Positions 6,126 to 56,496 of a stretch of DNA of 64,000 nt are shown here, piece after piece (within the stretch, counting starts at the first letter, position 1; every line of letters starts with the position of its first letter). This DNA is from Microcaldota archaeon. GTDB taxonomy: Archaea > Micrarchaeota > Micrarchaeia > Micrarchaeales > Micrarchaeaceae. The notes beneath the pieces were generated by a model. That model saw only the letters and a list, made by a program, of their open reading frames with translations, had not been told where the DNA came from and did no database searches. Where the stretch lies: NCBI GenBank assembly GCA_021799475.1, contig JAJZAJ010000001.1, forward strand, positions 186,001 to 250,000, read 5' to 3'. The position numbers were made by a program, and so were the translations under genes.

Positions 6126-6252
6126 GCCGGGGTGGCAGAAACTGGTTAATGCGCCGGTCTTGAATTTTCAAAATCTCAAGAGCTGATTTGTGATGCGGAA
6201 CAGGCGAACCGGTGCCCTTACGGGCTTTAGGGTTCAAATCCCTACCCCGGCG
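6126..6252 (+). tRNA. tRNA-Ser (TGA) with a 37/38 intron
   Basis: This is a class II tRNA: acceptor GCCGGGG (6126-6132) pairs with CCCCGGC (6245-6251), with discriminator G as in archaeal tRNA-Ser. The anticodon stem CCGGT (6154-6158) pairs with ACCGG (6208-6212). The loop reads CTTGAA then A, giving anticodon TGA at 6161-6163. About 42 bases, roughly 6165-6206, separate position 37 from 38 and form the intron. CTTGA (6159-6163) can pair with TCAAG (6176-6180) in the precursor, consistent with a bulge-helix-bulge. The variable arm is GCCC-TTAC-GGGC. The splicing enzyme is encoded at 11099. Confidence 0.9.
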
Positions 6253-26914: not shown

Positions 26915-27031
26915 CTGTTTTGCCCAGCCAAAAGCAGTCATTTCAGGACTTTCTTCCTTCCCTCCCGGCGCAGAGATTTTCAAAGCCAAACGTTATAAAT
27001 AGCTTTTCCCGTAAAGGTTTATGCTTATGAT

Positions 27032-27106
27032 GGGCTCATAGCTCAGCCTGGTTAGAGCGCTGGTCTTATAAGCCAGATGTCGTGAGTTCAAATCTCACTG
27101 GGCCCA
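27032..27106 (+). tRNA. tRNA-Ile (TAT)
   Basis: Acceptor GGGCTCA (27032-27038) pairs with TGGGCCC (27099-27105), discriminator A. The anticodon arm is CTGGT-CTTATAA-GCCAG, anticodon TAT at 27067-27069. D-arm GCTCAGCCTGGTTAGAGC and T-arm TGAGTTCAAATCTCA are regular, and there is no intron. A TATA-like CGTTATAAATAG lies at about 26991-27002. Most archaea read AUA with a modified CAU anticodon, so a UAU isoleucine tRNA is unusual. Confidence 0.93.
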
Positions 27107-27296
27107 TTTCTGCATAGGCGCAGGCAAAAATACGGGCAACGGAACAATAAGATATCCCGCTGAACGGATTCATTTTCCTTTCATTCTCTTTATCCTTCTC
27201 TTCTTCCTATCCCTCACTTGACGGTATTTTGACATTAAGGCACCATACAGCATTTCGCCAGCAAGGTATAAATATATTCAGGCACTCACATGAAGC
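27107..27296. promoter_or_regulatory. Intergenic region with pyrimidine tract and TATA box
   Basis: A pyrimidine-rich run covers roughly 27170-27220 (CATTTTCCTTTCATTCTC and onward), just after a tRNA gene and possibly ending its transcription. GGTATAAATATATT at about 27264-27277 is a strong TATA box about 25-30 bases before the ATG at 27297, suggesting a leaderless transcript. Confidence 0.55.
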
Positions 27297-32260: not shown

Positions 32261-33517
32261 ATGCCTGACAAAACAATCCCAGCTGACCAGCAGGAACTAA
32301 TAACACTTATAGATGAGCTGACTCCAGAGGCGAGAACAACAGCACTGAAAAGAGCGGAAGAGATAGGACTGCTTCCCACTAATAAAGCTGCGGTTGCGGA
32401 AGCATATGAGAAGAAGGGAGAGTATGTCTCTGCCGCCAAAATCTGGCTACAATTAGACAACAAACCCAGAGCAGTATCATGCGCAGAAGCATCTGAGAAG
32501 AAGGGAGAGTATGTCTCTGCTGCCAGAATCTGGCTACAATTAGGTAACAAAAACAGAGCCGCAGTATGCGCAGAAGCATCTGAGAAGAAGGGGTGGTATG
32601 CCAACGCCGCCAGAGTCTGGCTACAATTAGATAATAAAGATAGAGCTGCAGCATGCGCGGAAGCATGTGAGCAGGAGGCATGGTATGCTGACGCCGCAGA
32701 AATCTGGCTACAATTAGATAACAAAGACAGAGTTGCAGCATGCGCGGAAGGATATGAGCAGAAGGCATGGTATGCCGCCGCAGCAGAAATCTGGCTACGA
32801 TTAGGTAACAAAGAAAAGGCAGCGGAAGCATATGAGAAGACGAGAGATTATATCGACGCAGCCAAAATCTGGCTACGATTAGGTAACAAAGAAAAGGCAG
32901 CGAAAGCATATGAGAAGAAGGGATGGTACGCCGACGCCGCCAAAATCTGGCTACAATTAGATAACAAAGACAGAGTTGCAGCATGCGCGGAAGCATATGA
33001 GAAGAAGGGAGAGTATGCCGCCGCAGCCAAAATCTGGCTACAATTAGATAACAAAGACAGAGCTGCAGCATGCGCGGAAGCATATGAGAAGAAGGGAGAG
33101 TATGCCGCCGCAGCCAAAATCTGGCTACAATTAGATAACAAAGAAAAGGCAGCGAAAGCATATGAGAAGAATGAGTGGTATATCGACGCCGCCAAAATCT
33201 GGATACAATTAGATAATAAAGTTATGGCAGCGAAAGCATATGAGAAGAAGGGAGAGTATACCTTAGCCGCAGAACTCTGGCTACAATTATATAAGAAAGA
33301 AATGGCAGCGAAAGCATGTGAGAAGAATGGATTGTATGCCGCCGCAGCAGAACTCTGGCTACAATTAGGTAACAAAAACAGAGCCGCAGCATGCGCGAAA
33401 GCATGTGAGAAGAATGGATTGTATGCCGACGCCGCAACGATATACAAGATGCTTGGAAACGCTCAAAAAGCAGCAGCGCTTACGAAACTGGCTGCGCTGC
33501 TCCGCGATCAAAACTAA
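32261..33517 (+). CDS. Helical-repeat (TPR/SNAP-like) protein C
   Basis: This 418-residue paralogue has the shared N-terminal cap, about 12 two-helix repeats, and the ATIYKMLGNAQKAAALTKL cap. Two linkers alternate, ACAEAYEKKGEY (29-residue unit) and KAAKAYEKKGWY (26-residue unit). Repeats 7 to 9 are almost identical in DNA as well as protein, so unit gain or loss by recombination is likely. Two late repeats have AAELWLQL in place of AAKIWLQL. No export signal. It stands away from the nuoD-pfdB locus, with a copied upstream flank but no copied downstream flank. Confidence 0.85.
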   Translation: MPDKTIPADQQELITLIDELTPEARTTALKRAEEIGLLPTNKAAVAEAYEKKGEYVSAAKIWLQLDNKPRAVSCAEASEKKGEYVSAARIWLQLGNKNRAAVCAEASEKKGWYANAARVWLQLDNKDRAAACAEACEQEAWYADAAEIWLQLDNKDRVAACAEGYEQKAWYAAAAEIWLRLGNKEKAAEAYEKTRDYIDAAKIWLRLGNKEKAAKAYEKKGWYADAAKIWLQLDNKDRVAACAEAYEKKGEYAAAAKIWLQLDNKDRAAACAEAYEKKGEYAAAAKIWLQLDNKEKAAKAYEKNEWYIDAAKIWIQLDNKVMAAKAYEKKGEYTLAAELWLQLYKKEMAAKACEKNGLYAAAAELWLQLGNKNRAAACAKACEKNGLYADAATIYKMLGNAQKAAALTKLAALLRDQN

Positions 33518-41324: not shown

Positions 41325-42650
41325 ATGCCTGACAAAACAATCCTATCTAATCAGCAGGAACTAATAACACTTATAGATGAGCTGACTCCAGACGCGAGAA
41401 CAGCAGCACTGAAAAGAGCAGAAGAAAAAGGACTGCTTCCCAGTAATAAACCTGAGACTGCAGAAACATATGAGGAGGAGGGGTGGTATGACTATGTCGC
41501 CAAAATCTGGACATTGTTAAGCAACAAACCTAGGGCAGCAGAAGCATACGAGAAAGGTGGGCGGTACACCGACGCAGCAAAAATCTGGCTACAATTAGAC
41601 AACAAACCCAGAGCAGCAGAAGCATATGAGAAGAAGGGGGAGTATTTAGATGCAGCTAAAATCTGGCTACAATTAGACAACAAAGAAAGAGCAGTAGCAT
41701 GCGCGGAAGCATATGAAAAGAAGGAATTGTATTATACTGCCGCCAGAATCTGGATACAATTAGACAACAAACCCAGAGCAGCAGAAGCATATGAGAAGAA
41801 TGGAGGGTATGCAGACGCAGCCAAAATCTGGCTACAATTAGATAACAAAGACAGAGTCGCAGCATGCGCGGAAGGATATGAGAAAGGGGTGCGGTATGTC
41901 GACGCCGCAGAAATCTGGCTACAATTAGACAACAAACCTAGAGCTGCATTATGCGCGGAAGCATGTGAGAAGAATGGATGGTACACCGACGCAGCCAAAA
42001 TCTGGCTACAATTAGATAATAAAGTGAAGGCAGCGGAAGCATATGAGAAGAATGGAGGGTATGCAGACGCAGCCAAAATCTGGCTACAATTAGATAACAA
42101 AGACAGAGTCGCAGCATACGCGGAAGCATGTGAGAAGAATGGATGGTACACCGACGCAGCCAAAATCTGGCTACAATTAGATAACAAAGAAAAGGCAGCG
42201 AAAGCATACGAGAAGAGTGGGCGATGTGCCGACGCAGCCAAAATCTGGCTACAATTAGATAACAAAGAAAAGGCAGCGGAAGCATACGAGAAGAGTGGGC
42301 GATATGCCGCCGACGCCGCAGAAATCTGGCTACAATTAGACAACAAACCCAGAGCAGCAGAAGCATACGGGAAAGGCGGGTGGCATACCAATGCAGCCAA
42401 AATCTGGCTACAATTAGACAACAAACCCAGAGCAGCAGAAGCATACGAGAAAAGTGGGCGGTACGCCGACGCCGCCAAAATCTGGCTAGAATTAGACAAT
42501 AAAGAACGGGCAGTATCATGCGCAGAAGCATATGAGAAGAGGGAGAGGTATGCCGACGCCGCAACGATATACAGGATGCTAGGAAACGCTCAAAAAGCAG
42601 CAGCGCTTACGAAACTGGCGACGCTGCTCCGCGATCAAAATCAATCATAG
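41325..42650 (+). CDS. Helical-repeat (TPR/SNAP-like) protein D
   Basis: At 441 residues this is the longest of the four paralogues, with the shared N-terminal cap, about 13 two-helix repeats and the ATIYRMLGNAQKAAALTKL cap. Units alternate between the CAEA linker (29 residues) and the short linker (26 residues). One unit carries an extra two residues (RYAADAAEIW). The core IWLQLDNK is nearly invariant. It sits between intact nuoD and intact pfdB, and broken pieces of both flank paralogues A and B, so this is probably the founder locus. No export signal; a protein-binding scaffold is the reasonable guess. Confidence 0.87.
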   Translation: MPDKTILSNQQELITLIDELTPDARTAALKRAEEKGLLPSNKPETAETYEEEGWYDYVAKIWTLLSNKPRAAEAYEKGGRYTDAAKIWLQLDNKPRAAEAYEKKGEYLDAAKIWLQLDNKERAVACAEAYEKKELYYTAARIWIQLDNKPRAAEAYEKNGGYADAAKIWLQLDNKDRVAACAEGYEKGVRYVDAAEIWLQLDNKPRAALCAEACEKNGWYTDAAKIWLQLDNKVKAAEAYEKNGGYADAAKIWLQLDNKDRVAAYAEACEKNGWYTDAAKIWLQLDNKEKAAKAYEKSGRCADAAKIWLQLDNKEKAAEAYEKSGRYAADAAEIWLQLDNKPRAAEAYGKGGWHTNAAKIWLQLDNKPRAAEAYEKSGRYADAAKIWLELDNKERAVSCAEAYEKRERYADAATIYRMLGNAQKAAALTKLATLLRDQNQS

Positions 42651-47603: not shown

Positions 47604-47745
47604 TGGGGCTGCCGGGATTTGAACCCGGATCAGCTGGTTGCTTCATATCATAATCGAAATTCCAGATTCTCATCATCGCGTTTCCGCTCATATCTAACTA
47701 TAAATATCTGGAGCCAACTGCACTGCCAGGTTATGCTACAGCCCC
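47604..47745 (-). tRNA. tRNA-Trp (CCA) with a 69-base intron
   Basis: Read on the minus strand, acceptor GGGGCTG (47745-47739) pairs with CAGCCCC (47611-47605), discriminator A. Anticodon stem GTTGG (47718-47714) pairs with CCAGC (47637-47633). The loop is CTCCAG then A; anticodon CCA is at 47711-47709. The intron runs 47707-47639 between positions 37 and 38. It contains ATGATGA (47676-47670), a good box C, and TCTGGA, complementary to the anticodon loop TCCAGA. Euryarchaeal tRNA-Trp introns often serve as box C/D guides for this tRNA. The mature length is 73. Confidence 0.92.
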
Positions 47746-54837: not shown

Positions 54838-56496
54838 ATGGCAGAAAATCAACTGGGAGGACAACAGGTAATAGTACCCGAAGGATCGTCAAGGGTAATC
54901 GGAAAGGACGCGCAGAGGATAAACATAATGGTCGCGAATGCGGTAGCGAATGCGATCAAGACCACGCTTGGCCCGAAAGGGATGGACAAGATGATGGTCA
55001 GCGACCTTGGCGACATAGTAATAACAAACGACGGTGCAACTATATTGCAGGAAATGAATGTCGAGCACCCAATAGCAAAAATACTGGTTGATGTGGCGAA
55101 GACGCAGGACAAAGAAGTCGGAGATGGAACCACGAGCGTCGTCATACTTGCCGGAGAGCTGCTCAAGGGAGCGGGAGAACTGATTGAACAGGGGATCCAT
55201 CCGACCACTATAATAAGAGGCTACAAGATGGCTTCCTCCAAGGCTTCAGAAATACTTTCGGAAAAGGCGAAAAGCGTAGATGTAAACGATGATGCAACAC
55301 TGCAGAAGATAGCCATGGTGTCAATAGGATCAAAGAACATTGGAGATGAAGCGATAAAGCAGCACATAGCCAAGATAGTCATAAAGGCAATAAAGCAGGT
55401 CATGGAGAAGACAGGAAATAAGTATGTCATAGACCATGATTTCATAAAGGTCGAGAAGAAAGTCGGTGGCAGCATAGCTGATACGGATCTGATTGATGGC
55501 GTGCTGATAGACAAGGAGATTGCCCATCCGAACATGCCAAAGAGCGCGCTAAACCCGACGATAGCCCTGCTGGATGTCGCCCTAGAAATAGAAAAAACGG
55601 AGACTGATGCAAAAATAGAGATAACAAGTCCGGAGCAGATGCAGGCATTCCTGCAGCAGGAGGAGCGCATGCTCAAGGACATGGTAACTAAGATAACGAA
55701 GAGCAAGGCAAACGTCATATTCACACAAAAAGGAATAGACGATGTGGCGCAGCACTACCTCGCAAAGGCAGGAGTGATTGCGGTCAGAAGGGTAAAGAAA
55801 TCGGATATGGAGAAACTCGCCAGGGCTACGGGTGCAAAGATAGTCACAAGCATCGAGGACCTGAATACATCTGATCTAGGATCCGCGGGAAGAGTTGAAG
55901 AGAGGAAGATATCTGGAGAGCAGATGGTCTTCATTGAGAAGTGCAAGAACCCGAAGAGCAGCACGATACTTGTAAGGGCAGGATCAGCACAGGTTGCCGA
56001 TGAGGCGGAAAGGTCGATCAACGACGTAATAGGTGCGGTATCAAGCGCCATAGAGCTTGGGCTCTACGTGATAGGCGGAGGAGCGATAGAGATAGATGTA
56101 TCTAACGGCGTCAGATTATACTCGAGCGAGGTCGGTGGAAGAGAGCAGCTGGCAATAGCGAAGTTTGCGGACGCTCTAGAAGTAATTCCAAGGACATTGG
56201 CAGAGAGCGCAGGAATGGACGCAATAGATACGCTGGTACAACTGAGGAGCAAGCACAAGTCAAAGGAGGGATCATCTTACGGGGTAGATATATTCTCGTC
56301 AACGGTAGGAGACATGGCTAAGCGCGGAATATTCGAGCCGCTTAAGGTCAAGACGCAGGCCATCTCATCTGCGAGCGAGGCTGCAGAGATAATCCTAAGA
56401 ATAGACGACATGATAAGCGCCCGCAGCAGACCTGGAGGAGGGGCAGGCGGAATGCCGGGAGGTATGCCCGGCGGCCACATGCACGAAGGAGAATAA
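54838..56496 (+). CDS. thsA: Thermosome subunit (group II chaperonin)
   Basis: This ATP-driven protein-folding chamber subunit has the standard three domains in 552 residues. LGPKGMDKM and [12 protein letters not shown] near the N-terminus and the phosphate loop [12 protein letters not shown] near residue 90 form the ATP site. The apical domain lies between about 215 and 370, with the helical lid. A Gly/Met-rich C-terminal tail ([16 protein letters not shown]) is typical. It is preceded by GTGATAAT. Prefoldin (42782) is its partner in protein delivery. Confidence 0.97.

Follow-up and report, generated by a model that had tools for sequence, protein, structure and literature searches.

An isoleucine tRNA gene with the anticodon UAU in a Micrarchaeota order in which TiaS was not found

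Background

In most archaea, AUA is decoded as isoleucine by tRNA-Ile2(CAU), whose anticodon receives agmatidine through the action of TiaS. According to a 2022 paper, prokaryotes generally do without the more direct solution, a tRNA bearing the anticodon UAU, since U34 in modified form would read AUG as well (PMC8879553). This fidelity problem is a real one, since a UAU version of haloarchaeal tRNA-Ile, described in a review, carried cnm5U and bound AUG too (PMC7694415). A 2018 survey reports tRNA-UAU in two of 167 archaeal genomes and suggests that it was absent from the archaeal ancestor (PMC6000648), and another paper lists the same two archaea together with 17 bacteria (PMC8450103). In these papers Nanoarchaeum equitans and Korarchaeum cryptofilum represent two isolated, species-level gains; each has a UAU gene and no tRNA-Ile2(CAU) (PMC8450103, PMC6000648). 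The K. cryptofilum gene contains an intron, and its product best matches the tRNA-Ile(GAU) of the same species (PMC6000648). Among bacteria, Mycoplasma mobile has a UAU gene and has lost the C34-modifying enzyme; an unmodified U34 and changes to its IleRS and ribosome have been shown there or inferred from experiment (PMC4014445).

The system described here belongs with these. A micrarchaeal genome contains an intact tRNA-Ile(UAU) with an isoleucine-type body, and neither tRNA-Ile2(CAU) nor the TiaS domain PF08489 was found in it, a combination resembling that of N. equitans and K. cryptofilum, whereas the agmatidine system, with a TiaS gene and a third CAU tRNA, was not found in this genome. 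As in K. cryptofilum, the UAU tRNA is close to the tRNA-Ile(GAU) of its own genome, here with 64 of 75 positions identical, but the gene under study lacks an intron. M. mobile offers the same pairing of a UAU gene with a lost C34 enzyme, although that system is bacterial and its U34, IleRS and ribosome have been approached by experiment. Eukaryotic tRNA-Ile with a Psi-A-Psi anticodon is likewise encoded with UAU, and the intron that is frequent at position 37/38 in relatives of our micrarchaeon adds to the likeness; the differences are the intronless copy in the window and the failure to find a TruA/Pus1-family enzyme in the genomes searched.

The UAU type is already known, and what is new is its clade-wide extent: it spans an order and reaches contigs bearing other DPANN names. 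No report of UAU decoding as a trait of Micrarchaeota or DPANN was found in the open-licence literature, as far as its accessible text extends; tRNA databases may list the genes. Three aspects appear useful, namely the extent across the clade, the role as reader of the main isoleucine codon, and the absence from our searches of the usual U34 enzymes. A UAU tRNA is the norm in one Micrarchaeota order, where it serves the commonest isoleucine codon and where TiaS, Elp3 and TruA were not found in the genomes examined for each. How U34 can accept A and reject G within the split Ile/Met box, an old question, thereby becomes testable in archaea that rely heavily on UAU.

Results and discussion

The tRNA-Ile(UAU) gene and the tRNA complement of its genome

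The window, the whole stretch of 64,000 nucleotides that was analysed, corresponds to positions 186001-250000 of contig 3 in a micrarchaeal assembly of 814,392 bases (three contigs, 95.3% complete). Its features, and related loci elsewhere in the genome, are collected in Table 1.

Table 1. Coordinates of the features discussed; those prefixed C1 or C3 refer to contigs 1 and 3 of the assembly, all others to the window
Feature	Location	Strand	Remarks
tRNA-Ile gene, anticodon UAU	27032..27106	+	75 bases, intronless, no encoded CCA; ARAGORN, Rfam, cloverleaf check
Anticodon loop CUUAUAA	27065..27071	+	anticodon UAU at 27067-27069
TATA-like stretch, TATAAATA / GTTATAAATA	26992..27001	+	about 30 bases upstream of tRNA-Ile(UAU); by eye
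Thermosome subunit gene	54838..56496	+	test of codon meaning; AUA in 45 of 59 Ile codons
ORF of 1020 aa	23852-26914	+	directly before tRNA-Ile(UAU)
Two AUA-poor long ORFs	32261-33517; 41325-42650
tRNA-Trp(CCA)	47604-47745	-	69-base intron
Pair of tRNA-Ser genes, read as UGA and CGA	6126-6252 (+); C3:65984-66109		introns very similar
tRNA-Ile(GAU)	C1:167083-167157
Initiator tRNA, CAU	C3:184141-184215
Intron-bearing CAU tRNA	C1:155085-155202
Partial tRNA copies	C3:400944-401004; C1:4794-4877; C3:6217-6275; C1:209046-209115

ARAGORN predicts a tRNA-Ile (tat) at 27031-27107, and the Rfam tRNA model RF00005 matches the 75-base gene with 71.2 bits (E 1.5e-13). The cloverleaf is complete without an intron, with two G-U pairs (gene positions 5:70 and 33:41), U33 and A37 in the anticodon loop and A as the discriminator; a misread anticodon or a hidden intron is ruled out, as all pairs form in the intronless reading. 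The preliminary description had recognized a tRNA-Ile with a UAU anticodon at this place, and the two programs and the full cloverleaf confirm it. The body of the molecule is of the isoleucine type because it is identical to the tRNA-Ile(GAU) of the same genome at 64 of 75 positions, versus 36 of 75 for the initiator tRNA; the gene most likely originated by copying, either from tRNA-Ile(GAU) or from an isoleucine tRNA ancestral to both. The TATA-like stretch ahead of the gene, picked out by eye, is likely a putative archaeal promoter element. The long ORF directly upstream has no Pfam match, and its isoleucine codons are strongly biased (60 AUA, 1 AUU, 20 AUC).

RF00005 gave 52 matches in the whole genome, 48 of them over the cut-off, and all 52 were read individually. 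They include two isoleucine tRNAs, one GAU and one UAU, the latter being the copy in the window. CAU anticodons occur in two tRNAs only: an initiator, recognizable from its A1-U72 pair and from an anticodon stem with three G-C pairs, and an intron-bearing tRNA that must be the elongator tRNA-Met. A third CAU tRNA, as tRNA-Ile2(CAU) would be, was not found among the 52 matches, and a scan for intronless CAU loops across the tRNA loci of the genome returned the initiator as the sole match.

Usage and meaning of AUA

Isoleucine codons were counted across the window in 66 ORFs that do not overlap one another (at least 100 aa, chosen by length rather than by gene calling). AUA accounts for 899 of 1391 (64.6%), against 310 AUC and 182 AUU, which bears out the earlier statement that AUA is favoured here. 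In the same ORFs A occupies 27% of third positions, and GUA makes up 31% of valine codons. With AUA at 65% of isoleucine codons, tRNA-Ile(UAU) therefore serves the main isoleucine codon. The two AUA-poor long ORFs in the window have scattered Pfam matches only and may be spurious or repetitive.

The meaning of the codon was examined in the thermosome subunit gene by comparison with the solved structure 1q3r. Opposite its 45 AUA codons stand Ile in 22 cases, Val in 11, Leu in four, Met in three and other residues in five, so that Ile or Val faces 33 of the 45; opposite its 19 AUG codons stand Met in 10, Leu in five, Ala in two, and Ile and Val in one each. The residues facing these codons in the thermosome indicate that AUA means Ile and AUG means Met. 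A reassignment of AUA is ruled out for this protein, whose AUA codons lie mostly opposite Ile or Val.

Search for TiaS

The search for TiaS relied on one domain, TiaS_FLD (PF08489), which gave 0 matches in the genome that contains the window. A single gene missing from a 95%-complete genome is weak evidence alone, and the claim rests instead on the absence throughout the phylum: PF08489 was over the cut-off in 0 of the 164 genomes of the order and in 0 of the 301 genomes of Micrarchaeota, whereas four archaeal control genomes were positive. The lack of this domain from 301 genomes therefore marks a lineage without TiaS. Its sole sub-cut-off match, of 15.6 bits in another micrarchaeal genome, is no TiaS remnant, the protein being an aconitase. 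The preliminary description had named tiaS and a functional tRNA-Ile2 as the two genes whose presence, with the UAU gene unexpressed, would speak against direct reading by UAU; both were sought across the full genome and neither was found, the CAU tRNAs being the initiator and elongator tRNA-Met only.

Distribution in Micrarchaeota and beyond

An exact pattern covering the D-arm and anticodon of the UAU tRNA is present in 176 of 301 Micrarchaeota genomes, made up of 141 of the order's 164 genomes and 35 of the 137 from elsewhere in the phylum; the reversed pattern, as a control, gave 0 matches among the rows listed. A looser search of 74 of the 102 non-matching genomes outside the order returned some match in 37, and in 20 of the 74 this took the form of TCTTATA with one to three mismatches in the D-arm. 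A UAU tRNA-Ile without TiaS also occurs in the relatives of our micrarchaeon, so it is no rarity but a feature of the lineage. A further pattern, YTTATAA...GTTCRA, looked for in 49 genomes, was not counted, as the matches were mostly AT-rich and the reversed control was at least as frequent.

Across contigs of GTDB species, at least 110 stretches match the UAU pattern. Their labels name Micrarchaeota (at least 44), Woesearchaeota (at least 15), Nanoarchaeota or Nanoarchaeia (at least 13), Diapherotrites or ainarchaeum (at least 12), Pacearchaeota (at least eight), Aenigmatarchaeota (at least three), Marsarchaeota (at least three), other archaea (at least seven) and bacteria (at least five). 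The TiaS counts cover Micrarchaeota genomes, and the matches in other groups are known from the UAU pattern alone. Contigs with bacterial labels (Parcubacteria, Akkermansiaceae, Verrucomicrobiaceae and WPS-2; loci L094, L098, L111, L160 and L162) carry UAU tRNA matches whose D-loop is archaeal in style.

One genome outside the order (G178, 100% complete) yielded 41 Rfam tRNA matches, from which both a UAU tRNA and an elongator tRNA-Met are missing. Many of its tRNAs contain introns, at least one of them apparently in the T-loop, and its tRNA set is evidently undersampled, since the elongator tRNA-Met is missing as well and the tRNAs are intron-rich.

Introns in the tRNA-Ile(UAU) of relatives

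Within the order 41 loci were sampled, as far as possible a single one for each genus; an intron interrupts 25 of them at position 37/38, 15 are intronless and one is undecided. Elsewhere in the phylum all 19 sampled loci have an intron. The calling procedure over-reads one intron (L241) and produced two 7-base artefacts (L109 and L156).

Most of the 19 introns from outside the order begin with the 5' motif [TC]GRC-N3-YTCTRRYACA, also seen at L093, L096, L110, L136 and L139, often with ACA after it. The motif is complementary to the 3' strand of the D-arm in the same tRNA, giving a long alternative hairpin in whose loop the anticodon would sit. A run of at least seven pairs with the D-arm occurs in 15 of the 19 introns outside the order, against 4.96 expected from shuffled introns, in a set that was not selected for pairing but whose members are related to one another. 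Within the order the figure is four of 25 (3.34 expected), and in the named set it is 30 of 71 (15.75 expected). In an alignment of 18 sequences, 91.5% of the 234 pair cells form, versus 50% or fewer when the partner is slid, a figure biased upwards because the 18 rows were picked for pairing from 43. In both variable columns of the D-arm the changes are matched on the partner side, C-G replacing U-A in four sequences and in one; cells changed on both sides number five, against 2.0 in shuffles, a value reached in eight of 500. Introns of tRNAs of other isotypes show no excess (17 of 83, 16.2 expected), which gives a rough background only, as ARAGORN assigned several UAU tRNAs to other isotypes and so contaminated this control.

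A search of 15 of these loci against Rfam with E up to 0.5 returned tRNA matches only, apart from one chance-level match far below its gathering score, and inspection of the introns by eye disclosed no convincing box set of an H/ACA or C/D guide.

Reading AUA while sparing AUG

The gene, the tRNA set, the lack of TiaS, the preference for AUA and the spread among relatives are direct observations, and the reading they favour is that the UAU tRNA-Ile very probably decodes AUA by Watson-Crick pairing, in place of the tRNA-Ile2(CAU)/TiaS agmatidine route that is absent from the lineage. In this scheme the tRNA would be expressed, charged with isoleucine by the IleRS of the genome, and would pair through its UAU anticodon with AUA but not with AUG. 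The IleRS gene encodes 1043 aa and scores over the ileS cut-off; its nearest neighbours among solved structures are long IleRS enzymes, for example 8c8w and 1ile, followed by 9w01. A published IleRS determinant for UAU (Taniguchi, 2013) reportedly sits in another IleRS type. U34 is most likely plain, or bears a small modification that depends on neither Elp3 nor TruA, and misreading of AUG would most likely be prevented by the elongator tRNA-Met(CAU), as a competitor for that codon, together with the ribosome, as reported for M. mobile. The absence of Elp3 and of the TruA/Pus1 family from the genomes searched (detailed below) leads us to infer an unmodified U34, or one modified by another route, with discrimination taking place on the ribosome.

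The strongest of the competing readings borrows the eukaryotic solution, with pseudouridine (Psi) at positions 34 and 36 sparing AUG through a Pus1-like, intron-dependent enzyme. The eukaryotic Psi-A-Psi is made by Pus1 and requires the intron. With it eukaryotes read AUA only, according to the 2022 paper (PMC8879553), and the frequency of introns in the order and their presence in every locus sampled elsewhere in the phylum would suit such a requirement. We nevertheless regard this reading as unlikely: the window copy is intronless, and PF01416, which covers the TruA/Pus1 family, with guide-RNA and TruD/Pus7 routes falling outside it, was found in 0 of 21 genomes including this one, against 12 of 14 control genomes.

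The pairing between intron and D-arm invites a bolder proposal, in which Micrarchaeota and other DPANN would possess a further solution to AUA, a UAU tRNA that needs no agmatidine, Elp3 or Pus1-type chemistry. An ancestral intron would pair with the D-arm so that a hairpin loop offers U34-A35-U36 to a modifying enzyme, and the lineage of the window would have shed the intron and spare AUG by other means, for instance the ribosome. We offer this as a speculation with rather long odds against it.

A degree of dual reading, in which the tRNA would decode AUG alongside AUA and the lineage would tolerate isoleucine at some methionine codons, is improbable too. That none of TiaS, Elp3 and the TruA/Pus1 family was found in the genomes searched would fit such tolerance, but AUG stands at conserved methionine positions of the thermosome, where Ile faces one such codon, in a comparison of one protein that would still admit low-level misreading.

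It is very improbable that U34 carries cnm5U or a comparable modification of the Elp3 type, such as other archaeal tRNAs with U34 have. Elp3 starts the cnm5U pathway. According to the review, haloarchaea do place cnm5U on a UAU mutant of tRNA-Ile, and the enzyme for cnm5U is named there as unknown, but the tRNA so modified is the one that bound AUG as well (PMC7694415). Of 60 relatives, this genome among them, none had an Elp3 (TIGR01211) match over the cut-off; two matches of 23-27 bits were weak and partial.

Lastly, the three contigs and 95% completeness of the assembly would leave room for a tRNA-Ile2(CAU) and TiaS in a gap, with the UAU gene as a pseudogene or decoy, but given the perfect cloverleaf, the tRNA pattern shared by 141 of the order's 164 genomes and the want of TiaS over the cut-off throughout the 301 genomes, we consider this scarcely credible.

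Other tRNA loci

The tRNA on the minus strand of the window, labelled Gly(ccc) by ARAGORN, reads as tRNA-Trp(CCA). Its intron contains TGATGA-like stretches similar to the box C/D guide of archaeal tRNA-Trp introns. ARAGORN labels both tRNA-Ser genes Ala; their very similar introns suggest a gene duplication in which the intron was kept. The partial copies listed in Table 1 are 3' parts of Glu, Leu and Asn-like tRNAs, with CCACCA following the Glu one, and look like integration-site remnants or pseudogenes.
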